Source of the DNA: Pezizomycotina sp. ARF18
Taxonomy: Eukaryota; Ascomycota
Direction: 5' to 3'
NCBI GenBank assembly: GCA_002224055.1
Contig: AZLU01000104.1
Span: 72,501 to 136,500 of the forward strand
DNA length: 64,000 nt
Positions 1 through 38,727 of the stretch are shown here, in pieces. The notes under the pieces are model-generated. The model saw only the letters and a list, made by a program, of their open reading frames with translations, was not told where the DNA came from and searched no databases. The number at the start of each line of letters is the position of its first letter. Position 1 is the first letter of the stretch. The translations under genes were made by a program, and so were the position numbers.

Positions 1-3000
1 ACGTCTACGACCAGCTCTCCGACATCTACGACGCCACCTCCCCCTCCAACCCCAACACCCCACCGCCATCCTCCCTCCCTCCAAAGAAGACGAAATAAAC
101 CGCATCCTCGCCGGCCTCAATGCCGCCCAAACGTACCGCCGTCACCACACCCGCAAAAGTAGTCAGATCCTCGCACCCCCCGGCTCAGGCAAGACGAAAA
201 CCCTAACGTCCCGCGTGGCGTACATGCTAGCCTACGGCATCGAACCCTCGAACATCATCGTCGCGACGTTTACGGTTAAAGCGAGCCGGGAGATGAAGGA
301 GAGGATCGCGGGATGCTGGAGGGGTTGGAGAAGAAGCTTGTGCTGGGGACTTTTCATAGCATTGCGAGAGGTATCTGGTGAGGTATAGTGATCTTGCGGG
401 GATCGGGAAGGGTTTGGATTGCGGATACGAATGATACAAATGCTATTATCGGCGTAAGTTGTTGCTTCCTTTCTGCTCCGAAGTAAAATTCGTCAACTCG
501 GAGAGATTAAGAATATGTTGTTAATGGGAATTTATTGTAGCGTCTGATAAAACGGCACAACTTCGACTCGCTGGATGCGTCCGGCGTCCGATCACAAATC
601 TCGAACTTAAAAGCGAAAATGATTTCCACCGCCGACTTCCGCGAAATGTCACCTAAAGAAGGTCCACAGTACGAAACTCGGTAATATACACAGACTACGA
701 AGCCGAGCTCAAAACGTCAAATTTACTAGACTACGACGATCTCCTGTTGCGCTGCGTGGATTTACTCCGCAAACACCCGCGCGTAGTTTCGAACGTCGAA
801 GCCGTGCTCATCGACGAATTCCAGGACTCGAATATCGGCAGTACGACCTCATGTGCCTCCTGGCCCAATCCCGCGGCAACATCACCATCGTGGGCGATCC
901 GATCAGTCGATCTACGGTTTCCGTGCGGCGGAGATTGGCATCTTAAGAAGATGCAGGAGAAGTACGAGGATACGGTGCAGATTTTCTTGGAAGAGAATTA
1001 CAGGTCCAGTGCGTGTATTTGAATGCCGCGATAGAGGTTATCGAGCAGGATACGCACAGGCCAAAGAAGCCGTTATTACCGACGAAGGGTTGGGTGTCAG
1101 CCCGTCCTGAAGAAATTGCCGACGGTGTATGCGGAGGCGCAGTGGATGGCGAAGGAGATCGTAAGAATTGTGCGGTGACGGGACGATTGATATCGCTGAA
1201 CGACGTCGCGATATTAGTCCGCTCGGCGTCGTTGACGAGAGTTATCGAAGCGTGTTGGTGGAGCAGAGGGTTTCGTACAGGATGGTTTGCGGGACGAGGT
1301 TCTTTGACCGGTTGGAGGTGCGAAACGTGTTGGATTATCTGAGGGTGTTGTATTTACCCACGAACAACGACGCTCTCGTGAGATCATCAACGTCCCGCCG
1401 AGGAGGATCGGCGAGGTTACGATAAATCTCTGCTGGAGGAAGCAGCGAACGGAAGAAATCACTTTGGGATCTTATTTGCGGCAAACGCGCAGGGCAAGCT
1501 TACGGCAAGGACGAAGCTTATGAAACCCGCTCAAGACGGACTAGCGAAGCTCGTCAATGTCATTCTTTCATCGAAATGGGTACTAGATAGAGATACCAAG
1601 AGTGTCGAAATGGCCGTGTTTGATCCAGATTCTGACGAAGCAAAGGCCGAACGACACTCATTACGCTCGTCAACAAGGTCCTCAAGAAGCTAGGTTACGA
1701 AGAATACCTAAAACGCATGCACACCAAAGACTTCGACTCCAGGTGGCTAACGTTCAAGAATTGTTGGTACAAGCGGACGAATTCTCAGAGGCGTGGATGA
1801 AGGGCATCTCCGCTTCACAAGAGAACGAACTCCCGACCATCCACGCATCGGTATTGACGAAACGGACGATTTAAGGACTGCACTAGGGAAATTCCTTGCG
1901 AATGTAGCGCTGACTTCGTCGCTGGATTGCACCAGAAGATGGAGAGCGCCGCAGAGCAAGTTACTATCTCTACAATTCACAATGCGAAGGGTCTGGAGTG
2001 GCCGGTCGTCTTCATACCCGGATGCTACGAGGGTTCGATACCGCATTCTCGCGCCGAGGACACGGACGAAGAAAGACGGTTGCTTTACGTTGCTATGACG
2101 CGCGCTAAGAGTCTATTGTACATGTCGTACGCTTGAAGAATAGTAAATCTGGTGTGTATTTTATTCGCATTTTCCCTCTCGTAACAACATTTCGTATTAT
2201 GTGCATGACTAATGTCTCGCAGAGCAAATATCCGTCTCCAACTTCTTAACCCACCAAGGCGTAAAGCGCGTCATCGCAAAACACGGCCCCAAAATAACCC
2301 CGACAATCGTACAATCCCTCGCCGAAATCCTCGCCGCGAATGTCCCACGCTGCAGCAAATCCAATCCGCCATCGAAGCCGCAAACCTCGAAAGCGAAGAA
2401 GACGAGCTATGCTCAAGGACGATTTCAACAAGGGAGACGGCGAGGTAGCTGGTCCGACGACGACATTGACGATAATAATTGGAAACGCCAACGTATGAAC
2501 AACGGCAGCACGTTCCGTAGCGTCGCGTTCAGACCACCTATCCTGGCATTACCACCGGTGGGGGCAAGCATGGGCTTCGTTAGCGCCGGAATCCGCATGC
2601 GCGAGCTCAGCAACGAAGAAAAGAATCGTCCGAAGGATAGCGGTAAAAGTAAAGTCCGGCAAGGGTGCAATGTTCCCCGAAGATCCGGAGAATAAAGCGA
2701 AACCCGGCAGGAAGCCGAAGGATACCGGTTGTCAGGATATTAGAATTTCTTCATTACTAAAACCGAAACGAAGACTATACTACCACCACAACTACCACTA
2801 AACTCGCCGCCAGCAAACCCGTCCAACGCTCCGCAGTCGCAGCAGCAGGAAAACAGCCAATTGACTCCGTCACCGCCGTCAGCAAACCAGATTACATCCT
2901 CCTCTCATCCTCTCCCGATCGCCCGTCGGCGTTTACTACTGCCCGAACGACTACGACGTTAAGCAGCTTGCAGAGTGTGCAGAAGAAAAAACCACCGCTA

Positions 3001-13665: not shown

Positions 13666-15417
13666 CTAAACGCGATCGCTAGCCTTCGGCTTCTCCGGCG
13701 GTTCTAACGTAGCCGCTTCGCCGTCCGTACTACTCGGCGGCGCTTCGTTCTGTAGCTTGCTTATCCTCCTCTCGTCGTTGATCTTCATATGACCCGCCTC
13801 GAGCACCTCTTGAATACCATACTCGATCAGCATCTCACCATATCCAACTCGTCGACACCCCTATGCTCAAGGTGCTCCGGAATCCTCAGTTTCATCCCGG
13901 GGATCTTATCGATAATAAGCAGCAGAACGGTCGTGACGGTGAACGAGTACGCGAGATAGCGACGCAGCCGGCGAGCTGGTAGCCGAGCTGGACCAGTGAT
14001 GGTTTATCCAGCCTCCGGGCAGCGAAGAGATTCCGTCGAGCGCGACGACGTAGTCGGCGGCGAAGAAACCGTGCAGACGTTCCCGATGAAACCGCCGACA
14101 CCGTGGAGCGCGAAGACGTCGAGGCCGTCGTCGACTTTAATAATGTGCTTAAGGTCAACGCAAAGTTCGCACCAGCAGCCGCAAGAACACCGATGGGTAC
14201 GGCGGTGTAAATAGGCACGTAACCGCACGCAGGCGTAATACCGACTAAACCAGCAACAGCACCAGAGCAAAGACCAACGAGCGACCACTTCTTATCCTTC
14301 CGGATGTAATCCATAATACACCACGTAATAGCGCCGCAGGAGGCCGCGAGGTTAGTGTTTACGGCGGCGTAGATGGAGCGGATGGTCATGTTGACCGCGG
14401 AACCGCCGTTGAAGCCGAACCAGCCGAACCACAGGAAGATCGTTCCGAGGGCGGTGAAGAGACGTTTCCGGGCTTGTAGACGGGCATCTTGCCGCCGAAT
14501 TCACCCTGGCGGCGGCCGAGGATGAGGGCGTAGGCGAGGGCTCCGGCGCCGGACGTCATGTGGACGGGACGCCGCCGGCGAAGTCGAGGGAGCGAGCTTG
14601 TACAGCCAGCCGGAGGAGTTCCAGGTCCAGCAGGCGATAGGGTTGTAGACGATCGTTTCCCAGCTGATAATTCATGAAACATTAGAAACAGAAAAAAAAA
14701 ACCTAAAAATATTGTAATTGGGTCATTGCTTATAAAGGAATGGAAACGTACATGAAGAGGAATACGGCGCTAGGCAGGAGCCTTCCGCGCTCCATGGCTC
14801 CTCCGAGCATGAGGACACCGGTAACGCAGCGAAGACGAGCTGGAGAGGTAGAACAGGATATCGGGTACTAGGGGCGAGCCGACGCTAGGCGCGCCGAGTA
14901 CATCTTTCGATCCGAAGTTGGCAAGGTCGCCGATGAACGGGCGGCGGTGTGGGAGAAGGTCAACGAGTAACCCCAAAGAACCTATTTTTGCGGCGCAGTT
15001 TAGCTACGATATTCTGATAATTGAGAAACTTGTGGTATTATAGGTATTTCGAAAGCTTACCATTGAAAACTAACGACGCCGACCGCCACCATACTCTGCC
15101 AGAGAAGCGCGGTCGAGCTATGTCTGCGCGCGAGGCCGGAATATAAAAGGCCGACTCCCGGAATCATGATCCACACCAGCACCGCAGCTACGAGCACCCA
15201 TGCCATGTCCCGCGATTGTACTGATTGTTCATCTCCAAGCCATGTGTAACTTTCCGAAAGCAGAAGAAAAATATAACGTCAGCTTTTTTTCCATTTTATT
15301 GATCGGTAAATAATAGAAACCTCTAGGTAACAAAACAGCAATAATAATGAGAAGATGAAAACGAAACACTTACGCGAATCACCCCAGTGGGCCCGTCAAG
15401 TTAGCGTTCGTCGACAT
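13666..15417 (-). CDS. Ammonium permease, Mep/Amt family
   Basis: A plasma-membrane ammonium transporter with about 11 helices. The start ATG at 15417 gives MSTNANLTGPLG, a typical short outer N-terminus. The first helix exon reads MAWVLVAAVLVWIMIPGVGL with LYSGLARR after it (about 15210-15130). Further marks are FLWFGWFGFNGGSAVN (14430-14390), a YIRKDKKWSLVGLCSGAVAG helix (14310-14250) and VDDGLDVFALHGVGGFIGN (14140-14085), the family signature around the second conserved His. The cytosolic tail has LRIPEHLEHRGVDELDM, like the Mep C-terminal regulatory domain, and ends KASDRV at 13666. Introns lie near 15373-15250, 15060-15000 and 14755-14660. Several one-base indels split the frame (for example near 14590, 14470, 14150 and 13845) without loss of similarity. 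GATA-type motifs upstream at 16277, 16669 and 16947 fit nitrogen control but lie far from the start and could be chance. Confidence 0.9.
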
Positions 15418-21851: not shown

Positions 21852-24800
21852 CTATATCACCTCATCGTACAGTTCCTCATACAAATAACTACTTGCTAGA
21901 AGCATGTCATTCTCCGGAGAGGTAGCCAAGATGCACTTATAATCAGGATGCAGTTCAGCTTCCTGTACATGTGCACCGCTTTTTAGGAGTAAAGACAAAA
22001 CTTCTTTATGTTTACTGTTTTTTTGACAGTTTCCCTCTTGCCAGTGCGCGGATTAGCCCCATACAAAGGAGCGAATTTGGACACTTTGGGGCGAACTCTA
22101 CGAGCGTTGACATCTGCCTCGACGTTTCCATTCTGCGCGGCCACGTGGATGGCCATGTCGCCGTCGTAGTTCCTCATATTAATATCGACTCCTCCAACGT
22201 CTACTAAGGCCTTCATTACCTCCGCGTGATTTATCCTCGTAGCGTTGTGCAATGTGAAATTCATCGCCCTAGGTCGAACACCTTTGCCAATTAAGTCTCG
22301 CACAGCCAGGGATAGCCCCAGACCGGACATATCACTTAGCGGACCGCCGTAGTCGTCGTCTGGTTCCTTTCTATGAGGTAGTTATATATCGATTACGAAT
22401 CTCCACAGCCAGAAACATCCAGGCACCAGCTCAACTTGTAGAAATTTTTTCGCCGTGGATAACAATGATTTCTCCTGCTCCTGGGAGATTATGCACTTAT
22501 GCCAACCGTTGGCAACGTAGAAGTACAGTGGATAATCCGGTTCGATGTCGATGCAGCTTTCATCGAGTCACTCCCTTACAGGACCAATAACGTCAAATTG
22601 GCTCCACTGTAAATACGTCAAGCAGCTGTTAAGCATAAGTTCGTTTCCTTCTTTCTCTCCTAGGCTGAAATACTTGAGCGAGCTACCAACTAGCCTTTCC
22701 GAGGTTAAATATTCCTGAACGCTGTAATGTGCCAGACTAAAACGTAATCTCTTTTCGTGCGGACTACGAGCCCAACTCTCGAACGTGACTAGACTACCAG
22801 TAATACTTTTGATTGCCAAAAGAAGCACTGAGTCGGTTTCATTCTAACTCGAACTGTTCGTCTAGGTCGATGTGTAGTCCCGAATCTGGTATCTTCGTCC
22901 AAGCTTTCGGAGCCTAGCGCTACTATCATGGCTTCGGCTAACTGATGAAGGGTAAGAGGCGCAGATGCCCACATAATCCAGGCGAGGGCTCGCCGGAGAT
23001 ACTCCTTGTCATCCGGAGGAGTATTTTCTAGTATTCGATCGTAGGTATCGTACAAAGTCTTCGGAAGTTTCTTTAATGTAGAACTCGTCTGAGTAGGCGT
23101 TCTACATTTTCTGATGGAGCTCACCTGGCATTCTACCAGCGGGACCTAAATAAACTCAGGTTTAGGCTCTGGGCAGTCCGATATTCGTAATAATACAACA
23201 GTCTACCTGAGAAGCCAATGGATAGAAAAAATTACGTTCATTGAGCCCCAGCCACCAAACCTTTCATTATTTCTTCCTTAAATGACGCTTTTAAATGTTT
23301 CAAATTCCTATCGCTGTCCATTATGGCTTTTACGAATACTTCTATATCGTAATTGGTTGAGCTTGTCTCGATCGAAATCGATTAGAGCAAAAGATCGTCT
23401 AATACCTTCTCGATTTTCGTCTCCTTCCGACCAGTCACGATCATACCGATGACCGGTATTTCCGGTGGTTGCTCGATAGAGTCAAACGGGTTCTCCTCTT
23501 CTTCATCCGATCTGTGACATTGATCCAGCGCGTCGAAAAACACGTATATTCTTTCAAACTGCGTGCAAATATTTGTGATTTCGCCTATAAGCTCCGTGCA
23601 GTCTGGCGAGCCGTTGCTCATATTATAATTTTCGTATAAGGCGAGGAGATCTTTCGGAAAGTCTTAGAAGGCACTTGCTGGCCTATTTGAGACAGAATGG
23701 AGCACGGCATATTGGTGGTGATCTGCTTCTTCTGTTCTTTGAATGAGAGTAGAAATATACACAGGCGGCGTTTTTGTGCACTCAGCCCTGGGTTTTTGCT
23801 GCTATTGTTGTCTCGATAGTGGAAGACCTGTTGCGAAGTTCTGCTTAGTGATTAATGTGCAACGGTTTTCTATTGAAAACTGACCAGGTATAACCCTGGA
23901 CGTTTAATGTTCGGGACGATATAATGTATATTCTTTAACGAAAGCTCACTCCTATGATGCCTTGCACCTGGTTGATTTCCCCCAAAGAATTGGGTTACAT
24001 GCACGGAGAATCCTTACACCAATATGATTTTCCCAGCGCCAGCTTTAAGGAGAATAAGTTAATCATCCTGTGCACAAGTCAATGTAATACTTGATGTAAT
24101 AAAACTTACGAATACCGGAGAGCTAAAGAAGGCGCTTATCTCCAGCAAACCACCTGGTAAAGACTTTTCCCTTCGTGAACCAATCTCCTGTTCCTTCGTG
24201 CAACTTTCTAGCTTCCTGGTAATTCTGTTTATAATAAACGCGATTATATAACCATTTAGAGCTTCCTTTTCGTCATCGAAAAAGAATTAGATAGAACTTA
24301 GCATCGACGTACACCAACAACTCATAGCATAGCCTTTGATGTTATTATATTAGATTTATATTGAAGAGAATCGATACCTGTTTGGCGAGAGTCGAAGGTA
24401 GCTTGAAAAGCGCTGTGTTTCTTGTAGGTGTATAACGGTGCGATATGTATCCAATGAAAGATTTTTCTATCACGACACATCTGCTGTATTTCCTCCATGA
24501 CAATACTTGAGAACATATTTAAACCCAGTACCATGTATACATATCTGTTATGTTGAAGGTTTAGGCACACTCTTAAGGGGGTCTATACTAACCTCTAATC
24601 CTTAACTAACGAAAGCTCAAGAATAGATTTCGCTCTTTCAAGCTTACTTAGGTAATCCTTAATCTCACTCTCCTTGAAAGGCCAAAGAATTCTTTTCAAT
24701 CCGCCTAATTTTTCTTCATGCGCGCCTCCTAATTTTAATTTCTCCATCATTGACTGTAAGACCTGCTGACAGATCCAAAGTGGTCTGCCTTCCGAGGCTA

Positions 24801-25032
24801 AGCTGGTTCCTACTTTTTTCGTCGGTATCACCGCCATCAAACGCGTCTTCATGAGCCCTGTCCTTTGAGACGCCCAGTATACCGATTAGAGAGAGCAATT
24901 CGGTTCGTAGCCTCTTGAGTCGTCCGGCGCATTCTTGTAGTCTCTGGCGTATCGGCAGATCGCGGTTGTGACGCTCCTAGCGAGATCCGCGACGTCGATG
25001 ACGCTCGCTACTAAACCGATAGCTTCTGCCAT
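21852..25032 (-). CDS. NACHT-ankyrin NOD-like receptor (NLR)
   Basis: A fungal STAND NTPase of the kind used in non-self recognition and regulated cell death. The start at 25032 gives MAEAIGLVASVIDVADLARS, the usual helical N-domain opening of fungal NLRs; that domain runs to about 24600. The P-loop region AGAGKIIL is at 24043-24020, with Ile where Thr/Ser is usual. Walker B is YVFFDALDQC (23546-23517), then IVTGRKE. The winged-helix part has LKKLPKTLYDTYDRILENTP (about 23080-23025) and LRRALAWIMWASAPLTLHQL (23000-22940). A FSLAHYSVQEYLTSERLVG block (22740-22690) precedes the C-terminal repeats. At least three ankyrin-like units follow (EVMKALVDVGGVDINMRNYD, DMAIHVAAQNGNVEADVNAR and EVLSLLLKSGAHVQEAEL), closing with YEELYDEVI at 21852. 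Frame changes occur about every few hundred bases, so functional status cannot be judged from this sequence. Confidence 0.8.
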
Positions 25033-25844
25033 CTTGATTCTCTATCCTTCCCAAACTCCAAACAGCCTCGGGCCTTTGACGATTCCAGTTCTGTTGGATT
25101 ACCGGTTCGTAAAGATAAAGAGAAGAAGAAAGAAGAAAGAACAACGGTTCCGTTATGCAGGATCCTTGATTTCAGAACGTGCCCTACTCCTAGAAGCACT
25201 AGCGAAACAGCTCATGAGGCTGAAACAAGAGAATTGCGAACTCACATGATTATAAGAGGGAAGATTGGCTTGAGGCTTATATTCCGTTAAGATTGCATGT
25301 CCTTGTAATCTCATCTCTACTATTGGTATGAAGCCTAAAACCTATCTTATTGAGGATTTATTGTCCAGTATTAGGGAAACTCCAGAGCAGAAGGCTTTGG
25401 ATACTTTGGAGTGGAGGTTTAGCAAGAGCCGCTATAACATGTACTGCTCCCATATTCGTCAAAATAGCGTGCTTAATGCAATAGGATACTCCTATGAAGC
25501 GGAGGTCAGAGTAATAATGACAATAAGTATGACAGTATACATTTTTTTTTCTATAATATTGCAAGGTTTTATCATAAAAGTGTTATCTAGAGTGTAGATA
25601 ATTTCCAATATATGTATATAAATAATTGAATTGACTGGAGTGAAACTTCGAATGGTATTTTAATCTGAAGTAATTGAGACTTTGCATGACTTCTCTCTCT
25701 CCTCTGCGTTATAGAGCAGGGAATCATTCTAGACAACTATATATACTTCTCTTACTCATAGTTCGTGTATCCCGCTCATCTCCTCTCCTCTTTTGATTCA
25801 CGAAGTACTCGGCATCTTACATCTCCGCCACTGTAATATGTTTA
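25033..25844. other. Short intergenic, no gene supported
   Basis: This is the upstream side of the NLR and the downstream side of the DUF4360 gene. The plus-strand open frame at 25328-25597 (89 codons) has no recognisable feature and is opposed by an open frame on the other strand. Confidence 0.4.
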
Positions 25845-26404
25845 TCAATTGAACAGCTTCGGGACAATCCCATGCGCCTGCCCGTGCTGCACGCCCTTTA
25901 TCTTAAGTTCCGTATTCACACCCAAATCCTGCGCAGCTCCGAAACCGTAAACCTGCTTTCCTCCACGGGTATATCGCCACCTAGATTGAACCCTCCATGC
26001 CACGGCGCTGGTACAGGGACCTCTGAAGTTCCCTGTTCGATGTGGTTCGAAGTGTAAGTTGTCGTCAATGTAGCTTGCACGCCGGCATCAATAATACCGC
26101 GGCCCTGAAACTGCGTGTGGGCGACTAAATACTGCCAGCCGGGAGGAACCGTAAGCTTGAGGATTACATAGCAGTATTTTGTATCTTCAGTGCGGGATAC
26201 GCCAGAGCCGACGGACGCAGTCATGTTGTTTAGACGTAGGCCGATTGAAGAGCCATCAGGGGCGTAAACAACATCGACAGAGCCGGAGGGGCAGCCTGAA
26301 CCGCTAGCGTAGTTTAGGGTGAAGTTGAAGCGAGGGTAAGGGGGCTGTGGTGTCGCCGCAACTACCAGAATGTAGGTAAAGAAGATAGCTAAGAAGAATT
26401 TCAT
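25845..26404 (-). CDS. Small secreted protein, DUF4360 family
   Basis: The start is the ATG at 26404, which gives a clear signal peptide (MKFFLAIFFTYILVVAA) followed by TPQPPYPRF. An upstream GTG in frame is not needed. The mature part has GSGCPSGSVDVVYAPDGSSI and LNNMTASVGSGVSRTEDTKY, then LKLTVPPGWQYLVAHTQFQG and IIDAGVQATLTTTY. This is the order of motifs in ascomycete DUF4360 proteins, including the paired Cys and the PPGW beta-strand region. The first frame closes at 25916; a neighbouring frame carries on with GAAQDLGVNTELKIKG, which resembles the family's late block, and closes at 25845. A one-base error near 25945 is the simplest explanation. The function of the family is not known. 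It is predicted to be extracellular. Confidence 0.75.
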
Positions 26405-27677
26405 GATAGCCGACACTGATGTCTAGGTTAGAATGAAGTTTTGTAGGAGAAGGACAAGAAAATTTGAGAAGATACATATAGATTGCTACGCGTTGCGACT
26501 TTATATGTAATAAGGCTGGCAAATATATATATATATATATATATACACCATAGAAGAAATCTAGTGACTTGATAAACTCACAGATATTGATCACGGATTC
26601 TCGAGCCCTGCCGTTAAATTTGAACTCCCTCCTTCCTTCTTGAATACCATAACCACCGGAGTCTCCTTGGTTAATGATTTTTCTACTTGTGTATCACGTA
26701 TCTTCTAATATAGATATTTCATTGTATCTGATAGAGCTGTTAGCGGCTTCCAGATTTTCAACCTTGTTATCCACGGGTAAAGTTAGACCGTGTCTCACGC
26801 GAAACTAGTTGCAAAGGAACTGCCGGGGCAGGCACGAATATCACAGTCTAGAGCATCGCTTTTGTACGATCTAAGGAGAGAATATATTACAGGTGAAAAA
26901 ATTTTCCTTCCGCTTTCATTTATACCATATATGGCTAGAATTATTAGTACGCAAGGGGATTCATCAGAGTATAAGTTGTGTTGAACACGGTCCAGATTCT
27001 GAACTACCAAGGCGATGCAGCCTTTCGGCAGTTAATACAATCCTTGTCAATCTCAGTCCTTCAATTCGTTAAGATTTCCGTCTAGGGACCAAATATGGGT
27101 TCGTAGAGGACCGGATCCTAGAACCCTTCAAAGCAGAGAAGATTATGAATCCATAGTGTGTGCCATTGGGGTAGCTTTTTATCTTTGTGGGGAAATATAC
27201 TAAGAAAGCGGATAAATACTGTTTATGTCCGTATAATTCTAAATATCCCAACTTGGTTCATAAAAGCATAGACAGGCAGAAAGCGAGCGACTTCAAATTT
27301 AGCACTAGCAGATTATAGGGGTAGTCATTGCATCCATGAAGGCAAATATTACAGAAAGATATATCTAGACTGTACAATCTAGCTTCGAGGATAAAATGGT
27401 TTATTACGTATATTTAGGGACATAGAATACCAACATGGATTAGATATTGATTAGTGGAGTAACTTTTAGCCTAGGCGCTGATAGTAGGAATATGGATAGC
27501 CAATTGTGTTGTAGCAAGTAGTCTCTATGACGGAATTGGATAAAGGTGATTTTCTCTTATTAGTTACAAATGTTTAACTTGAAAGATGTAAAAGGTTGCT
27601 AAAGAAGAATAATCTTTCAAAGCTTAGGCTAATCTAAGACAGCTGGTACTTAAGATAGGTATAAGACCGGTTGTCTC
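26405..27677. other. Intergenic, nothing recognised
   Basis: AT-rich, with an AT dinucleotide repeat at 26523-26545 about 120 bases upstream of the DUF4360 start. Only short open frames with rivals on the other strand. Confidence 0.45.
26523..26545. repeat. (AT)n microsatellite
   Basis: About eleven AT units upstream of the DUF4360 gene. Confidence 0.9.
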
Positions 27678-28032
27678 CTATAAGTTGCTCTCGATTACAC
27701 GCTCGCGCTTTGGGATTCGCCAGTAGCACTGTATCAGGTAATCCACAACTATGGGCTCTTGCGTTTGTATAGGACGAAATGGAAGCCGTTTATTTCCCTG
27801 GCGTCAGAATAGGCCAGAGGAGCGTCCCAACCAAGGTTGTAATTTTCGTGCAGGAAGTGAAGATGTTCAGCCTTAGGCGGAAGCGGGCTAGTACACGCTG
27901 GTTTTCCATAACACCAAGTCTATTCCGAGACCGATTGGCAATATCTTGCAAGCGGCCACATAACTCGCAGTCGCAGGGAGTATAGTATTCGTAGTCATCG
28001 TCTTCTCCGGGGACAGAGATTACCAATGGCAT
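27678..28032 (-). CDS. CxCxxC-VYLR family small protein, copy 1
   Basis: Member of an unrecognised small-protein family found six times in this window. The start ATG at 28032 gives MPLVISVPGEDDDYEYYTPC, then DCELCGRLQDIANRSRNRLG, which carries the Cys-x-Cys-x-x-Cys motif and the following Ile-Ala. The first frame runs to 27790. The family-like reading then moves to neighbouring frames, with HFLHENYNLGWDAPLAYSDA (about 27855-27795), EPIVVDYLIQCYWRIPKRER and the stop at 27678. The last part matches the family's (I/F)-P-(K/Q) ending. There is no signal peptide or membrane helix. It is the only clear copy on the minus strand and faces the others head to head. A bound metal is conceivable from the three Cys but is inference. 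Confidence 0.55.
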
Positions 28033-29238
28033 GTACCCGACGTTTTTGATTTGAGCGCAACGCCTCTCACGTCTACATTCAACGCAGGCGTGAGTAAAAT
28101 CGCACTATATTCTCTGGATTATCCCTTTCAGAATGGGGGCAAGCAAGGTAAAATGACAATTCGTAGCACATCTTTAGGGAAAAGAGGAGCTAAAGAACTA
28201 GGCAAGAATATGTTTGTTTTTAGGAAAGAGGATTCAATCTGTTTGATGCCAATTTTTAAACTTGTGCGAAATATTTTATGACCAGATGGGTCATGATCGG
28301 AACAGCCCATCTAGAAGGCTACTAAATAGTGATCGGATTGGGACTTCTCATGAAATACCTTATTCTCGAACTCAAGTAGAGAGAATGAGACTGGAGCTTT
28401 TGAGTACGGTATCTTCGAACTCATATCATTCTAGCGTATTTTATCAAGTGGCATGGGACACATCTGTTGCTATTATTCGCAGCAAGTGGGGATTCTCTTT
28501 TCTTTCAACTGATCAAGTTTGAGAATGTTTCCATTACAATATACTGATATATAAATTTACTTAGTCTCGTACCTCTCTACAGAATGTGTTATTTTATCTG
28601 GAGCGTCTTTTGGGGCCCTCTAACGGATAGGCGTTAACCAACCCCCAACCCAAAAAAAAAAAAAAAAAAAAAAAAAAGTCATCCACATCAGTGGTTGAAA
28701 ACTTTGGGTGAGCTACCGATAAGAGTATCGTTAAGTGCCTAAGTAATATAAGGTGATGCGTTATATCAAATGACAATAATAGGAAGCACTAAGCTTGAGC
28801 GTTTTTACGGGTCTCAGAAAGGCTTCTTTGACGGTTCGTGAACTCGTGATGATACAAAAGCTCGATGAGACGTGTCATGAACCGACAGACAATATTCTAC
28901 CGATAAAGCAATTAATATATCAATCAATACGTGGTTTAACTAATTCGATTGCAAACGGACACTTGCATTGTCAGAGCTCTTTACTCTTTGCAACAAATAA
29001 TCCTACACAGGAAAGCCATTTCCTAGAATTTTCGACAAATCAGATATTCAGGAAAGAAAAGCCCTTTTGCCTTCAAATTATAGCCATTGATAAATATGTG
29101 CGAGCATGTAGCGATTTATTTCGTTTGCCCAACCGGCGAGAAAGATCTGAAAAACCTCGTGCTCCGCCATGTCACCAAGGCAAAGACTGGCTGCGGTATA
29201 TCCAGCTGTCATGAGAAATATCCGTCAAGATTGACGTG
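28033..29238. other. Region between copies 1 and 2, two unassigned open frames
   Basis: Plus-strand open frames at 28051-28522 (two overlapping frames, together about 130 codons) and 28795-29214 (139 codons, opening with TTG; the first ATG is at 28849) precede copy 2. I recognise neither. A 26-nt A tract at 28652-28677, after a short C run, separates them. Confidence 0.3.
28652..28677. repeat. A tract, 26 nt
   Basis: Uninterrupted A run. It is preceded by AACCCAACC-type sequence and has no target-site repeat that I can see. Confidence 0.9.
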
Positions 29239-29632
29239 ATGGGAGTCGATATATTGGGCCGAGGACCGCGAATACCAATACTACACCACTTGCTATCAAT
29301 GCAACTTCTGCGCATACTTTAAGAGAATTGCACGGAGTGTGGATCGCTCACTACAAAGCAATATGGGAATTAGAGACATCATGATTAGGTTGACTAAGTA
29401 CGTAAACGAGTTTTACGCCTATCTGTACCGGGAGTGCCCTGAATACCAGAAAAATAGTGAGAGCGCCCTTCTCATTCGGAGCTCAAATCATGATATCCGC
29501 CAGATCCCTTTTCAGCCTATTGAACTTGACCCGCCTGAGTATTTGGATGGCTGCTTGAGTGCCGATGGAAAATTCCCAAGGGCTAGCGATTATTTGTATT
29601 TAGCAGACAATATATTCTTAAGTAGGTGTTAA
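29239..29632 (+). CDS. CxCxxC-VYLR family small protein, copy 2 (C-terminally short)
   Basis: ATG at 29239 reads MGVDI, then moves one frame to WAEDREYQYYTTCYQCNFCA and YFKRIARSVDRSLQSNMG. The family block is clear, but the Cys spacing is Cys-x-x-Cys-x-x-Cys, one residue more than in the other copies. The frame stays open through LTKYVNEFYAYLYRECPEYQ, which resembles the ELNEFF helix of copy 6, to SDYLYLADNIF, close to the VYLR position, and stops at 29632. The last 20 or so family residues, including the (I/F)-P-(K/Q) ending, are not seen. The plus-strand copies follow each other at 1.3 to 2.5 kb. Confidence 0.5.
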
Positions 29633-30458
29633 CCAATTCGTACTCACCTAATAAGTCAGATTTAACCTGTCTCCTCAAGACCAACGGAACCCCCTTCCTT
29701 AGGTAGTTTGTTTAATTTCTTAGCTCAAGGCAGGAATATGTTATACATATCAATAAAATATCCATCGCCCTTCAGTAAAGCTGGTGCCATCTAGTAAGAC
29801 TCCACCTTCCTTGCCCGATGGTGAGCAATGGCCAGAGATGAGAGAGCATTGTTGTTTATTCGCAAATTATGACATTTCTCGTCCCTATCGCCCTTTCTCC
29901 GGGACGAAGAAACAGTGCGCAACCCATTTAGAAGGCGTAAGCCTAAGATTGATCTAGAGAGATTTTTCGGTCTCTCTTTCCTCTCCTAAGAGTATTCCCA
30001 TTTCAATGCTCGTCAATCCTCATTTTGGTTTATTTTTCGCCGGTATAGAGATTTTGCCGTCACAGCATATACATTCCTCGTGGAACGTCAACTGCACGCT
30101 CGCAAACTTGTACTTTGCTACGGGAAATTAGGCCGTTGCCGCCAAAATGGCATGCGCAATTATTGGCTTAAAACGGCAGTAATTGACGTCAAATCAAGTG
30201 CACGTGGGGCAGAAAGACACGCCCTTTCCTTGAGAGGTTACTTAATAACAGGAAAGGGACAATAGTAGTGTCGCTTTGCAGCTCCACATGCCCAATTTTG
30301 GAAAGGAAAAGCTAGTGCTCATGATAATTCTGCTAGCTGCTACTGCTGCTGTGCGTTATATTCCCGGGGGGGAAAAGGGCCAAGCCACCCAACCCCTCCC
30401 ACCCGTTCGCGCCAGGTTAGTAGGGAAGGTAATTACTAGTGCTTGTGCTCACGCCTAA

Positions 30459-30488
<30 letters not shown>
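30459..30488. repeat. (ATTT)n microsatellite
   Basis: About seven ATTT units. Confidence 0.9.
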
Positions 30489-30489
<1 letters not shown>

Positions 30490-30702
30490 TTACTTAAGTA
30501 TTTATTTGTAGCTGTTGTTGCTATTATAGTATTATTGTGGCTTTTCTTCGTGGCTGGATGTATGTTGCGTGCATTACATTTAATAATTGCTTAAAACGGC
30601 TTAACAACACGTCGAAAAAATTTCAGAAAACGAGGTGGAAGTCCACTCTTTCCTCTTACGTAACTTGCTAAGTTAAAAAACGAAGACTGTACAAACTTGG
30701 CT

Positions 30703-30718
30703 CTTGTATGCATACAAG
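30703..30718. repeat. Perfect 16-bp palindrome
   Basis: CTTGTATGCATACAAG without a spacer. Role unknown; possibly chance. Confidence 0.4.
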
Positions 30719-31698
30719 TTGAGGAATGATCGATCTAGACTGATGCATGCCTTAGTCAAGCTCTCCTAAAAAAAAAAAAAAGGAGGCTATTAATGCGATC
30801 GATCTCCCTTTGTAAATAGGGTATTTCAGATCACAAGGATAATTTTATTCGGCCATGCCTTTGAACAGGCAATAGACTAATATGTATACCTAGAAACCGG
30901 TCAAGAATTCAGTGGGTGTATAGAGAGAGGGAGAGAGGGAGGGAAGGAGAGAAAGCCGGTGAATGCCAGGGCGTTTCAGGACTCTTGAATAGAAAGATGG
31001 AGTTAATTCTAAGAGTGTCACGATCTTGGGTTTATAATTTATACAGTACAAAATACAGGCACAGCTGATTTTAGAAAGGCTAGCTAAACCACAATATCTA
31101 AAAAATGATCAGATTTCAGAGATAGATGAACTTGAAATTCTTGTCAAGCACAAAGCTAAATAGTTTGTCCTTTATTTCGAGAGTTGATATATTGAGAATG
31201 CCAATGTGTAGCCTCGGACCCTACGAAGTATCTTTGGAACTTCCATCAAGATTTTCAAGCTATACTAGGAACGTACTCTGGGAGGCGAGTTTGTCAGGGA
31301 TTGTTCCAAGTTCCCAAATGAATAACCATCTCGTTGCTTCCCGAAGTATAAAGGACTTCGGAATCTCAAGGTTATGATATGTATATTCCATTTTTCAGGA
31401 TGTATCAAGATACCGTACAAAGGAGCTCAAATGTGACCGGAAGCGCACTCCGGTCCTCACTTCATATTCCTCTATGATGGGTAGTGGAACATAAGTTCAA
31501 GGATTTCAATGACCTATTGAATTATAAATAAGACACAACATTGCTAGCTGTCCTGAACTTTCGTTCTTATATCAGGACCTCAGCTCTCTTTAAAGCCAGT
31601 ACACTAGCACGAAAATTAATATTATTCCATAATCTTTATATATAATCAACCCAAATAGGACTATTTCTACCGGTGTCTTGTCATTTAACTTTCTCTCG

Positions 31699-31712
31699 CC
31701 CCCCCCCCCCCC
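31699..31712. repeat. C homopolymer, 14 nt
   Basis: The only long G/C homopolymer in the window; length may be misread. Confidence 0.8.
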
Positions 31713-31875
31713 ACGATAGGAACTAAAATTACGAGCCTGGCCACTATTTACAGAACTAAAGTCATGTGTAGAAACACCTTTCTCTACCTTTCTTGTCCTG
31801 GAGCGGAAGACTTGTTCAAAAATGTCGTCAGTTATTGTTTCTATCCGATCAATAGTTGTTCCTGTAGCGGGAGAA

Positions 31876-32299
31876 TGGACATCAACATGTGTCCTATTGG
31901 TAGGAGAGTTGAAGAGGACGATAATTTCATATACTTTACTCCTTGCGTGTGCTGGGCGTGCACTGAGTTCGGGAAGATTGCAAGCCGCCTTGAAACGCAG
32001 AAGGAAGAAGGCCGTTCCACAAGTAGCAAACTTCAAACTGATGTCCTGGCGGAGGTTAACGAGGTTTTGAGCAGCTCCGTCAAATAAATGAAGACCATCG
32101 TTTAGGAGGGAAGCTTCGTGAATCGGATGGATACCCCTACGATGCCAGCAGTCTTCCAGAAGCTCGTAAGCTCAAATATGGCGCTGTATACCTACGTAGA
32201 CCACTTGATATCGGTGGAGATATCTGCCACCGGGTAATTCCAAAGAACATATGGGCTGAGGCACGGGCGCTCGAGTTAAGTGAGCTGGTTTGGATATAG
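31876..32299 (+). CDS. CxCxxC-VYLR family small protein, copy 3
   Basis: I chose ATG 31876 because MDINMCPIGRRVEEDDNFIY aligns with the opening of copies 5 and 6; the frame is open further upstream to 31764. FTPCVCWACTEFGKIASRL carries the complete Cys motif. DVLAEVNE (about 32040-32063) then continues, one frame over, as FEQLRQINEDHRLGGKLRES and LKYGAVYLRRPLDIGG. It ends HRVIPKNIWAEARALELSEL-VWI at 32299. One indel near 32063 is enough to give a full-length family protein of about 140 residues. The C-terminal third aligns closely with copy 4 (RRNEDGHLRLG and TYGTVYLRQPVDI). It looks cytosolic. Confidence 0.6.
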
Positions 32300-33224
32300 C
32301 GCGCAAGCAATTTTGGATTCTCAGATGTACATCTCTATCATTTAATTCATAATGTACTTAGTTGCTAAAACCCTCGATTTTCTAGGTTGATAGGTATATA
32401 TATGCACAAATGCTTACGACCACCCACTGAAAACGAGACGCTACCTGTCAAATGTACGGAAATTTGGGATCCAAGTGATCAAAATTTGTAAAAGTATACT
32501 AGGACCGATATATGCTTTCATACATCCCTATTTTAAAATAGTGTTTGCCCCTACCGCTGCGTTTGTGTGTAACACTTGAAGATATTTGGCCCGAGATCTA
32601 CAACGTTAGAACTAATTGCTGAAGCATTCCGTTAGTAGATCTTTGATTTATTCTCTCCATTGCGTTTAATTGAGATTATCGACTTGGCGCTAACGGCTTG
32701 CACTAATTTTTAAGTGTTGCAAGTTCAAATTTCTGTGAACATCATTAAATGCTACAAATGATGAGTCTCAAATATGGAAGTTGTATCAAAATTATTGGTA
32801 TAAGGACGTCGATTATGGATTTCCTGCCTGAGGCACTTTACGTCGGTCTACTAAAACTGGAAGATAGGTTCAGAGTATAAACTATACCATTAGCAATGCC
32901 ATATCACATTATAAATCAAATAACGCTTTAACCTATTCTATTACCTAGCCCTTCCTTTTCGTCCCCATCCAAATCCACTACTCCACTTGACCTCACTAAT
33001 CTACGACAACCTCCACTCCACAACATTTGGCAGCGGTTAATTAAGACCATGGCTACTGATTATTGACGTCTCTCCCCCCCCCTCCAAAAAAAAAAAACTA
33101 TATCATACTGAATAAAGAGAAAAAGCAAACCTTCTATCTAAAAACGAACCGCTAAGCCCTTCAGTATGTGTATCGATATTAATGTCTACCTTTCCTGCCT
33201 ACAGGGGAAAAGAGGTTTAGCCAG
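32300..33224. other. Spacer between copies 3 and 4
   Basis: AT-rich with no supported open frame. An A run follows a C run at 33066-33098. A TACAG about 20 bases before the copy 4 start could be a splice acceptor. Confidence 0.4.
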
Positions 33225-33575
33225 ATGGTCATTGTCGTTTATCCTCCGATCGATAATGATTGCGGTTGTTCTCGAAAAAGCGAAATTTGGTGTACCCCGT
33301 TGGAAAAAAGTTTAGAGAGGATTACAGCCAGATATATCATACTTGGGCGAGATCAACCGGTTTATCGTGAACTTTATCGGAGAAATGAAGATGGTCATCT
33401 ACGCCTCGGTAGCCGTGCGGCGAATTCGAACAAGGCGCACTATTTCAAGCTTGATGACACTCGAGCGCTTACCTACGGGACAGTCTACCTACGTCAGCCG
33501 GTCGATATTGAAGAAAATGGCGTTACATATGAGTGTCAATGGCTATTCCCAAAGAGCCTAGAAGCCTTACGGTGA
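33225..33575 (+). CDS. CxCxxC-VYLR family small protein, copy 4 (open in one frame)
   Basis: This is the only copy with one open frame from ATG to stop: 116 residues, starting MVIVVYPPIDNDCGCSRKSE. The middle reads DQPVYRELYRRNEDGHLRLG, and the C-terminal block is ALTYGTVYLRQPVDIEENG followed by WLFPKSLEALR. The N-terminal block is shortened: Cys-x-Cys remains, but the third Cys is replaced by Lys and the acidic YxYFTP part is missing. It may be a diverged member or one with a lost segment. Spacing to the neighbouring copies is about 0.9-1 kb on each side, all on the plus strand. No signal peptide is seen (VIVV is too short) and no membrane helix. Confidence 0.6.
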   Translation: MVIVVYPPIDNDCGCSRKSEIWCTPLEKSLERITARYIILGRDQPVYRELYRRNEDGHLRLGSRAANSNKAHYFKLDDTRALTYGTVYLRQPVDIEENGVTYECQWLFPKSLEALR

Positions 33576-34539
33576 GCACACTAGTTAAATGAGCTACGAT
33601 AAAGAAGGCGACGAGGCAAGTTTTGATCACTCCGGATGTAATGGTACAGAATTATACTACTATACATTGATTTTTATCATATAATAGTTCTCCTTTAATT
33701 GCCAACTAATTATATGCTCTTGGAAGCCTTCTGTTGATCCTGCAATTGAATTATCCCTTCTTTATTCTAATAGAGAAATCTATCTATTTACGACCGCAAA
33801 TTTGAACGTTGAAATATGATTGTATCTGAGGCACGTCAGTTTGGCATAAGAATTCAAATATTAGATTGATATCCTAAATATAGATTGCATTATAGAGATA
33901 CGTATTTTGAGTAACATTTGTCTTTGAGGTCTCCGAAGACAGACCGAGGAGATCTATCTGAGCTATACAGAACTGAATTTGAGGGAATCGCCTTAGAAGC
34001 TCCAAGCATTGGTTTGAACCGTCTGTGATACGATCAAATCCAAAATATCCCTTTAACCTCTAATACATTACACTTTTTTTCAGATGCTGACACGCTCATG
34101 ATTTTGTTAACAGCTGTCACGCATTACACGTGAGACTAGCTTCGTGCTGATCTTAATAGAGTTTGATTTCAATCCAAAGAGCTTTTTCAAACCTGAGACG
34201 CCGTTTGAATTCTCGAAAGCATAATCGACATCTGGAAATATGCCAGGTTTGAGATATATTTAAGCTAGCATAAGCATTAAAATAAAATACGTGGTAAACA
34301 AAACCTCCATCCTCAAGTTTTTGTGGACTTTTATGTCTAAGCATCTGAGTTTGATTATTTACTTATATCCCCCTCCGATGATATATCAAATATTAGGTTA
34401 GAGAATTTCAAAGTTTCACCTCGACGGAATTTGCCTTATCGGAATCAGAATAAGTTATATTTAGCGGTATGGTATAGGTCAACATGACTAGAACATGCGA
34501 TCAAGACTTGCAAATGTATAGCAAGTTCTTATAAAAGAG
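33576..34539. other. Spacer between copies 4 and 5
   Basis: AT-rich sequence without a supported gene. The short minus-strand frame at 34344-34153 is not recognised. Confidence 0.4.
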
Positions 34540-35014
34540 TTATCAAAAATAGATCTAAGTGCATTCGCCGTCGGCAGAAGATTCAAGGAGGACGGATAAT
34601 ATATCTATTTCACGCCTCGCCGCTGCCTGGCATGTAGCGAGTTAAGAGAAATCGCCAAGCTTGTGTATGAAGACGCGGAAGAAATTGCACCACCAGGGCC
34701 TTCAATAGGATGATGGACAATTTACGTCAATTTTTCATAAATCTCCATGCAAGAGGGGAAGATGATAAAGACCTTTTTTACCGTCGATCAAGGGGACATT
34801 ACCTCTTTGCATATTTTGCAGGATAATGCTCGGCGCGTGCTATTCAGCGGAATATATTTATACAAGTTAGTCGACATCGACGGACACGACTGCGTCGGTT
34901 AATACCGAAAGACGCAGATTCAACGCAAAGGGCACACGCGCTGAATAGTCAGTTCTTAGATAAGACAGCCTGGCGGCAGGCTGAATCCAATTCAAGTGTA
35001 TTATCGAGCGCCTG
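34540..35014 (+). pseudogene. CxCxxC-VYLR family, copy 5, degenerate
   Basis: Family blocks occur in order but in three frames: LSAFAVGRRFKEDG, then after an in-frame TAA YIYFTPRRCLACSELREIAK (34600-34662). LRQFFINLHARGEDDKDLFY follows (about 34720-34785), then GIYLYKLVDIDGHD (34850-34892), and LRRLIPKDADSTQRAHALNS with a stop at 35012-35014. The first Cys of the motif is Arg here. With at least one stop and three frame changes in 475 bases it is more damaged than copies 3, 4 and 6. This may be real decay rather than base-calling error. Confidence 0.5.
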
Positions 35015-36189
35015 AGTAGGAGAGCGTATAGAAAGAAGGCGAGCGATTGAAAATGGAACAGGGCGTTTAATGCGGTTGATAATTTACTGACGTGGATTTC
35101 TGTAAGTTAGACGCCTGTTTTTCTAGGCAAGATTAAATACTATTCGATTCTACATTTTTCCTAACCTAAAATGTGTGAAATGGTTTCGATGATACGCCTT
35201 TACCATTCGTTCGATGTCTCTAATTAACTGGAGAGATGGTACAAAGTCCGACTCTTGAACCTTGTCTCCGACGTAGCCTTATTTCTAACCGTAACGCTCT
35301 CGATATAGCCTCGATGGCGTGCCAACTTTAATATTTGAAAATTTCCTTACTTCTACATAAACTCATAAAACGGCTATGTAAGAATCCATTCTTACGATAT
35401 GTAAGTATCTTTACTGGACGGTCGCCTCTAAAGGAGCAGAGAGCCATCCGGTTGTGTCATAATAAACGTTGGTAACCCAAACATAATTCATTTATTTTAT
35501 TCTGGGCAAATGCTAAATATTGAGCTACGAACTGGGTTTGTGAAGAAAATTCTAAACTATTGAAGCCTCTGCTGTTCTCAACAACGACAATTTCTTCTGA
35601 TTATTTTCTATCCTCTAACTACTAGGAAGAAAAGCGGTAAGCCCTCTTTCTCCTTTGAGCCTAGGACTCCAAGCTTACATCATGCATCCCTACGTTTACG
35701 GCACAGACAAATCTTGGATACTGGTCACATCTAAAGCTACTTAATACTATTTCTTTGCTTTTCTGCAATCGAAATTGAAAACAACGAAAATCGCTTCGAA
35801 AGTATGAGCTCAAGGGTGCACTATAATGTCTTTAATCGTCAAAAACTCGTTGTATGATATGGCATTATACACCCAGAAGCTTGGAGGTTATTTATCGGTA
35901 GAAGAAAAATCTTTAAAACCAAATAACAAATAGACCCTGCACCTTGCTAAGACCTCATTTTTCTTTCTCATTAGAAATTCCTTACTCCATATTTTCGAAA
36001 TATTCCCGTAAAAAGCTACTCCACATCGTTGTGAAGATCTTAAACTAAGAAACTTCTCTATATCCATCAGTAGCGCTATAGCAAGCAAGTACGCAACTGC
36101 AACCATGTGCAGACAGATCAGCTTTTACTTTTTCCTGTCCCAGCCGAGAGGACAGTCGCAATCGCATTATCCGGATCACTTCCGTCAGA
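35015..36189. other. Spacer between copies 5 and 6
   Basis: No supported gene. The minus-strand frame at 36106-35888 is not recognised. Confidence 0.4.
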
Positions 36190-36686
36190 ATGCGGTGTTC
36201 GACTACGGCTCTCAATATCAGCTGTCGACGAAAAGTAGCCCTTGTAGCATATCCAATTGGAAAATTTTGGAAAGCAGACGATAATTATCTTTATTTTACA
36301 GCTTGTGCTTGCGGGGCCTGTACTGAACTTGGAACAATAGCGCGTAATGTTCTTACTCGAAACAATCACTAGATTCAAATCCATATTGGCGAGTAACGTG
36401 GCAAGCATATTGGCAGCAAACCATAGCGGAGCTTAACGAGTTTTTTAGAAACATTTATGCAAATGGTGCTGATGCTCACTGCACCGCCGGCGGCACCGTC
36501 AGACCAAGCTCGCTTGCTAGACCTTATGTTATTCGAGACCTTGGGCAGCACACAACGACACCTGAGTTCGGTCCTGTATATCTACGCGAACCATGGCCTA
36601 CGCAAGACGACGAACCGGAATATCGTTGGGTAATACCGCAGAACCCAGAAGCTCAGCAGATAGCACTCGAAAGAGCGCTTCTATAG
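36190..36686 (+). CDS. CxCxxC-VYLR family small protein, copy 6 (longest)
   Basis: ATG 36190 gives MRCSTTALNISCRRKVALVA, then YPIGKFWKADDNYLYFTACA and CGACTELGTIARNVL, the clearest Cys-x-Cys-x-x-Cys block of the cluster. One frame change near 36350 leads to SLDSNPYWRVTWQAYWQQTI, AELNEFFRNIYANGADAH and PEFGPVYLREPWPTQDDEPE. It ends YRWVIPQNPEAQQIALERAL-L at 36686, about 165 residues. The long, undamaged second frame (over 100 codons) supports real coding. An indel is the simplest explanation for the break. The acidic and aromatic composition suggests a soluble globular protein. Confidence 0.6.
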
Positions 36687-37395: not shown

Positions 37396-38727
37396 TCAAC
37401 GCCAAGGGAATATCTTATACGGAGTTGTGCAAGCTGCGGTGACGGTCTCCGTATCAGTGCAGGTAGTGGTCACCGTGTTTGTGGCAACATCAGTCGTTGT
37501 GGTCGGTTGGAACACCGTGCACGTGCTCACACTCGTGACGACGCTAGTAGCAACGTTCGTCACGGTTTCCGTATCAGTTTCTGTGTCGTAACGGTGCACG
37601 TGACAGTCTGCGCTGGAGCCGGAGCATGCGTTACGGTTACGGTATCCGTTTCGGTGTAAGTCGTCGGAACAACAGACGTCTCGGTTGTCGTAATAGCAAT
37701 GGTGGTTGGGGAGACTGATGTGGTGGTTTCGGTAACCGTGACTGTGACTGCCACGGGTACACTGGTAATTGTAATCATGACGGGAGCTTGCGCAAAGCTC
37801 TCCGTTGTAGTCTCGGTATCGGTTACGGTAACAGTGGAGTACTGCATGATAGTATCCGTCTCGGTCTGGGTCTGGGTTTCCGTTTCGGTCTCCGTCTCAG
37901 TATTTGTAATCGTCGTCGGTTGGGCAATAGTGGTTGGTACTAGGACAGTAGTTGGCATGTAAACAGTTCCTGTCACTCTCTGCGTCTCTGTATCCACCTC
38001 CGTCACGTAGTCGGTTTCGGTACGTAGAGCGGTCTCCACGTCAGTCTCCGTCGCGGTGAGGAGGCTTGTGACTGTGTAATCCTGAACAACGTAGTCGGTG
38101 TACAATAGTGGAGTACAGAGTGATACTCTGAGTACAGGTCGTCGTTGCAACTGAGGTTTCTGTCTCAGTCTCAGTAACGGTTTCGGTTCAGTGTTAACGC
38201 TTGTTATAGTGGTGTATTGCGTTGCGGTAACCACCTCGCTCGAGGTCTCAGTGTCTGTGACCGTTACATAAACAGATTGAGGTACCGTGAGAGTGCATGT
38301 GGTTGTATATGTGACGCACTGAGTTGATGTTACCGGCGCGGCAGCACTGGTAATAGTGACGGTCTGGTATTCTTATTGGGGATTAGCAAATTGATCACAA
38401 ATTGTTCTAGCTTATTATCGGAGAGTTTATGCTAACTAACCGGTTTTTACGTCTGAAAAATTGAATCGTCAGTTAGTAAAAGAGTGCCCAAGTTCAAAAG
38501 TAAGCCAGAAATACTGCAGTCCCTATGGTAGTTTGAAAAGAGCTTACGGTTTCTAGTTACCGTCACTGTATAATATACAGGCGCGGCGGTTTGGGGCTTA
38601 GGATAGTTCCAATCGAAATCGTCGTCACCTCGGTACCTCTCCTCACTTCTTGACCACCACGAGGTGCTGCGATTGCAATTGGTAAGCCAGCAAAGACGCT
38701 GCAGATTGTAAAGAAAACGGCCCTCAT
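37396..38727 (-). CDS. Secreted Ser/Thr-rich repeat protein, adhesin-like
   Basis: The start at 38727 gives MRAVFFTICSVFAGLPIAIA, a signal peptide, followed by APRGGQEVRRG. After an intron (about 38550-38350) comes YQTVTITSAAAPVTSTQCVT, then a long stretch built of Thr, Val, Ser and Glu, with TETETETETQTQTETD (about 37905-37855), many TVTVT and TTTxT units and the end CTTPYKIFPWR at 37396. Cys residues are spaced in TCT, TTC and CTV contexts. Low-complexity Thr-rich walls of this type are typical of O-glycosylated cell-wall or secreted proteins in fungi. I see no GPI-anchor tail. Frame changes near 38610, 38180 and 37590 split the reading, and repeats make such errors likely. The role is inferred from composition alone. 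Confidence 0.65.

Follow-up and report, generated by a model that had tools for sequence, protein, structure and literature searches.

The window analyzed here is a 64,000-nt stretch of the genome of Pezizomycotina sp. ARF18 (contig AZLU01000104.1, C104:72501-136500; the genome comprises 46.4 Mb in 408 contigs), and the subject is six loci within positions 27,678 to 36,686 of it, numbered copies 1 to 6 from left to right. We propose, with a probability of about 0.55, that these loci, of which two are damaged, belong to a multi-copy family of small intracellular proteins with zinc-stabilized binding modules, expanded through birth and death. That this is a family of coding genes was nearly certain. 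Its proteins probably bind zinc, to judge from the cysteine pattern, and a non-catalytic role as binding adaptors is a tentative guess.

Members of the family inside and outside the window

An independent profile was built from ten copies outside the window and contained no window sequence. Against the window it matched copy 3 with an expectation (E) value of 3.1e-12 and copy 6 with 9.8e-12. It also matched both the N block and the middle block of copy 2 (2.7e-8 and 2.1e-3) and of copy 1 (4e-4 and 5.2e-7). In copy 4 the match was to the N block (8.7e-3). The reversed window, equal in size and base make-up, gave a top match of only E 0.1. Copy 5 was not significant with this profile (E 0.31), and it was assigned to the family through its match to copy 3.

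That match came from querying the genome, translated in six frames, with 65 N-terminal residues of copy 3, starting at 31908 with the MC block left out. The search recovered copy 6 at 51% identity (E 1.4e-7), copy 5 at 43% (E 9.9e-6) and, weakly, copy 1 (E 0.05). Queried with copy 4, the genome gave only weak matches, in the tails of copy 3 and copy 6 (E 0.02 and 0.15). The initial annotation had described six paralogous loci sharing a set of blocks, with a likeness that held across more than one frame. Each place was found to hold parts of these blocks, and the outside profile and its reversed control agreed with the description.

Protein queries against the genome, a check of the kind proposed in that annotation, found more copies. 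In 147 kb of fetched DNA, window included, the profile marked 49 groups on 14 contigs, a count neither random nor complete, since the fetched loci were chosen for family likeness and the search scores the best candidates only. At E <= 1e-3 there were 40 groups, 10 of which had built the profile and 30 of which had not. All family comparisons were made within the window's own genome, the comparison set containing no relatives of it.

Arrays were present on C1, C3, C62, C87 and C88, with pairs or single copies on the other contigs. The family was most concentrated on C3 (146-215 kb), where 70 kb contained 16 of the 49 groups and, in their midst at 182 kb, an NPHP3_N (NACHT-type) locus; a further copy was not found in a 5.8-kb stretch upstream of this cluster (best E 0.36). 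The family is thus genome-wide and not the single local cluster first envisaged. A 'system' was not apparent either, as only one kind of gene recurs.

Conserved module and properties of the proteins

The members share a module of about 70 residues. It runs from an MC block through a cysteine pair (about C32 and C37), a glycine and an acidic-Tyr block to CxCxxC, and is followed by a variable helix-rich part and often by a W-x-(hydrophobic)-P-K tail. Seven cysteines were nearly invariant: C2 (23 of 24), C11 (27/27), C32 (31/31), C37 (30/32), and C63 (31/31), C65 (30/31) and C68 (29/31), the last three spaced C63-x-C65-x2-C68. P12 (24/27), G48 (30/32) and Y60 (29/32) were also conserved. These counts refer to the 33 of 43 alignment rows with at least 40 filled columns, and to filled cells only. 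Each cysteine occurred in 92–100% of the filled rows, as is looked for in the ligand set of a structural zinc module.

The layout first described, YxY..CxCxxC..VYLR, was present as far as it went. It was incomplete, lacking the N-terminal third (M-C-x5-Y-x2-C-P) and two cysteines. Metal binding remained plausible, through seven conserved cysteines and not the three proposed.

Two copies could be read without interruption from the start Met to the stop, giving 138 aa (C3:186.5-186.9k) and 125 aa (C38:86.6-87.0k), in agreement with the small size expected by the initial annotation. The C38 copy begins MW where others begin MC. The family proteins are small, about 120–160 aa. Among 40 downstream stretches, 13 carried the tail motif, compared with 7 of 80 controls (P = 0.0016). 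The C88:56405-56692 copy has about 40 extra residues in frame between MCQIFHVYL and ACRFPLNSDG, representing either an intron or an insertion.

The N-block frames were preceded by an in-frame stop no more than 35 codons upstream of the Met in 35 of 37 cases. By a simple hydropathy measure (not SignalP), the highest value over 11 residues was at most 1.65 in 34 of the 37 N blocks, compared with 2.76 for the leader of a DUF4360 protein in the window. The three higher values, 2.00, 2.03 and 2.54, belonged to the C86 and C150 copies and to copy 4, which was counted past its frame break. The lack of a hydrophobic leader in the 34 agreed with the earlier view that the proteins are probably cytosolic.

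Constraint on the sequence and origin of the copies

Among 76 aligned pairs picked by protein score (3847 codon pairs), identity was 53% at the first codon position, 58% at the second and 36% at the third. In one C88 pair, 67% of the residues were identical and 41% of the third positions, and cases of this kind show long constraint on the protein.

In a tree of modest support, the C3, C88 and C1 copies mostly clustered by contig. The window copies fell in separate parts of the tree, with copies 3 and 6 together, copy 1 apart and copy 2 apart (modest or weak support). DNA-level repeats common to the window copies were not found. The window copies therefore did not arise in a single recent tandem burst, which corrects the local duplication proposed in the initial annotation.

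Direct or inverted repeats above chance length were not found flanking the window copies. For most copies of the family, the flank searched was 1.5 kb. Between the fetched stretches there were 13 DNA matches (two of them self-palindromes), none longer than 402 nt. All were either internal to a cluster or linked C88 with C279, and the window cluster took part in none.

Layout of the six window copies

Copies 1, 2, 3, 4 and 6 start with MCxxxxxYxxCP, 30–200 bases upstream of the starts given in the initial annotation. Copy 1 (27678-28171, minus strand) is in three frame pieces: the N block at 28082-28171 (ATG at 28171), the middle block with CDCELC at 27925-28083, to which the profile E of 5.2e-7 belongs, and the tail QCYWRIPKR..stop at 27678-27746. 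The remaining copies are on the plus strand. Copy 2 (29096-29586) has its N block at 29096-29236 (ATG at 29096), with one in-frame TGA, and its middle block (CYQCNFC) from 29240. The tail, ECRWKIPKG-stop, ends at 29586 in a frame other than that of the middle block. For this copy one continuous frame had first been listed, the latter half of which is probably off-frame.

In copy 3 (31764-32299, ATG at 31764), a single frame of 107 aa (31764-32084) covers the N block, the two groups of cysteines and the next helix, and the VYLR..IPK tail is in a different frame (32060-32296). Copy 6 (36105-36686) starts with MC at an ATG at 36105. Its cysteine module (36133-36369) is in a second frame, so that MC and CP sit in different frames, and the ELNEFF..VYLR..IPQ tail forms a third piece (36348-36683).

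In copies 4 and 5 the damage seems to go further than single slips. Copy 4 (33166-33575, N block and ATG at 33166) lacks CxCxxC; its acidic block, YPVGKKFREDYSQIYHT, is in one frame (33260-33367) and its VYLR..FPK tail in another (33183-33572). Copy 5 (34540-35015) is degraded, with several stops, a middle block without the first cysteine and the tail RRLIPKD; an N block was not recognized in it. The claim that CxCxxC occurs in all six loci was accordingly too broad, failing for copy 4.

Frame breaks in the family and in essential genes

Both ends of the module were found in 35 groups, of which 14 read it in one frame, 19 changed frame and 2 were split by a stop. The excess distance between the ends was –4 to 43 nt in split copies and –9 to 42 nt in unsplit ones. 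This equality indicated that the breaks are small slips, and ruled out introns as the source of the frame changes.

CCT chaperonins are essential in eukaryotes, and their genes were used as a control for assembly errors. A break was counted where the gap did not exceed 40 nt, which leaves no room for an intron. In the CCT genes on C20, C24, C53, C54, C99 and C139, there were 13 frame breaks in 8.7 kb by a first count and 13 in 7.8 kb by a second, or at least about one per 600–670 nt, missing pieces having been left uncounted. Two window genes were seen by eye to be broken likewise. The ammonium transporter piece at 13895-14500 (minus; PF00909, 2.6e-36) shifts to a different frame at around residue 122, and the UvrD/REP-type helicase at 2-1019 (plus; PF00580, 3.9e-19 and 5.2e-10) is in pieces, ending off-frame.

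These breaks in the CCT genes and in the two window genes indicated that the assembly carries many indels. As essential genes are broken too, frameshifts by themselves do not show pseudogenes. We attribute the frameshifts present in most copies largely to assembly errors. A pseudogene reading from frameshifts alone was set aside after this control, and was kept as a rival because the splits are in some excess.

Comparison with described families

Pfam-A was searched with 11 members of the family alignment and six window pieces. No match exceeded the gathering cut-off, the best E values being 0.024 and 0.0044, respectively. The latter was to GCM, matched by a single copy 6 piece at 17.4 bits where the cut-off is 25; other weak matches were PHM7_cyt (0.024) and, in one of the 11 members, Zn_ribbon_CSL (0.066). 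The possibility, raised with the initial annotation, that the blocks belong to a known mobile-element protein or a described family thus found no Pfam-A match above cut-off in its favor.

NCBIfam, which is made for bacteria and archaea, gave no family for five proteins at E up to 10. A PDB profile search gave six chains at E up to 10, the best of which (0.037, a CxxC oxidoreductase) was taken as chance. The absence of a known family with this block order from Pfam, NCBIfam and PDB agreed with the initial annotation, which had recognized none. No relatives were confirmed in bacterial, archaeal or viral contigs with one C87 copy as a single-protein query, which reaches close relatives only. A title on this family was not found in the literature, where word searches would miss an unnamed family.

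Among known proteins, the treble-clef and zinc-ribbon modules are alike in their closely spaced cysteine pairs, corresponding here to C32/C37 and CxCxxC, with the isolated C2 and C11 as residues that could complete two sites. They are also alike in the lack of a catalytic signature. They differ in that the present family has no credible profile match to them, Zn_ribbon_CSL and GCM being the best.

A Met-Cys start is also described (PMC11773813, PMC11199558) for targets of the Cys/Arg N-degron pathway such as plant ERF-VII and animal RGS4/5. The family shares with them the cysteine right after the initiator Met, nearly invariant here. Unlike in those proteins, six other cysteines are conserved along with C2, which suits metal binding.

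Weighing of the alternatives

In the proposed explanation, the cysteines would hold one or two structural zinc ions and carry out no catalysis. The folded module would present a variable surface and the tail, with which it would bind partners within the cell, either proteins or nucleic acid, while copies would arise and decay through birth and death. A bolder form of this proposal, which we regard as very improbable, is an undescribed fungal intracellular family in which the seven-cysteine zinc module, with its N-terminal cysteine exposed after removal of the Met, acts as a redox- or oxygen-responsive switch, and dozens of diverged copies, maintained by birth and death, serve in individual-specific recognition or as adaptors.

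Several points weigh against the proposed explanation. The zinc site is a prediction from the cysteine pattern, and two Cys4 sites would need eight ligands, one more than the seven cysteines. The AlphaFold model of copy 3, made from window sequences, was poor (mean predicted local distance difference test score, pLDDT, 49.7; about 30–39 in the cysteine part), with just two helices modeled, after the cysteines. The tail motif was not found in 27 of the 40 downstream stretches. Picking pairs by protein score biased the identity at codon positions 1 and 2 upwards. The module was split in 21 of 35 groups, in excess of the CCT-based expectation of about a third (P 0.003–0.009), and some copies may be true pseudogenes, although the CCT rate is itself a minimum.

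The last point leads to the reading of the window cluster, and of much of the family, as pseudogenes of a once functional gene. The frame changes taken separately (19 of 35) also exceed the CCT-predicted rate, none of the window copies reads from MC to the tail in a single open frame, and the losses in copies 4 and 5 fit such decay. Against it, the CCT genes and, by eye, the window transporter and helicase are broken alike, the distance between the module ends points to small slips, 14 of 35 groups keep the module in one frame, and divergence at third codon positions is far above that at the other two. We consider this reading unlikely. Nearly even in probability is that the copies are an unannotated branch of a widespread family of small fungal proteins that begin with MC and carry Y-x-C-G-H and C-x2-C. 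These unnamed proteins, usually listed as 'hypothetical protein', may be related. They share the N-terminal Met-Cys, an aromatic residue and a cysteine near residue 10, a later cysteine pair in similar order and the lack of a leader, and such proteins would have no Pfam model, as is the case here. They differ in that the present family has C-P instead of C-G-H, CxCxxC instead of CxxC, and a W-x-x-P-K tail.

The two other readings are disfavored. Many dispersed copies in small arrays, together with a cysteine motif, would be expected of a mobile-element protein such as a retroelement zinc knuckle. However, neither repeats nor a shared unit were found around the copies (flanks mostly 1.5 kb), the DNA matches between stretches were few, short and absent from the window cluster, and no Pfam element domain was matched, which made this origin most unlikely. 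Small, cysteine-rich proteins in many diverged copies in arrays also resemble a secreted effector-like family. The hydropathy values of the 34 N blocks argue against a leader, and Cys stands at the second position in 23 of 24; secretion was accordingly rated as quite unlikely. The explanation preferred is still that of an intracellular family with zinc-stabilized binding modules.

Neighboring genes

To the left of copy 1, an NLR-like gene at 21855-25041 (minus) is in several frame pieces, with a weak NPHP3_N/NACHT match (0.005) and ankyrin repeats. The family had been placed next to this gene. The DUF4360 gene (25919-26422, minus; PF14273, 5.2e-23), which encodes a clear hydrophobic leader, sits between them. 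Of 84 NPHP3_N loci listed genome-wide, a single one (C3:182 kb) had a family group closer than 10 kb, at a distance of 2.3 kb, where 0.72 would be expected by chance. Addition of the window's own NLR, which is outside this list, gave two (P 0.16). Linkage of the family to NACHT/NLR genes was not supported, as their co-location was at chance level. The NACHT-type and DUF4360 domains, along with short gaps of intron size, suggest a filamentous fungus.

Directly to the right of copy 6, a long repetitive frame rich in Thr, Val and Glu (TVTVTDTET type) occupies 37563-38372 (minus). It is perhaps a surface protein.

Implications

Gene models and pseudogene calls from this assembly need care, and an essential-gene control should come first. 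An indel-rich assembly breaks small genes, and annotation would miss or truncate families of this kind. The signature MCx5Yx2CP...C...C...Gx~14CxCxxC...WxxPK can be searched for directly. If the family is real and expressed, it would amount to about forty genes or more within a single fungus, unrecognized by the Pfam library used.

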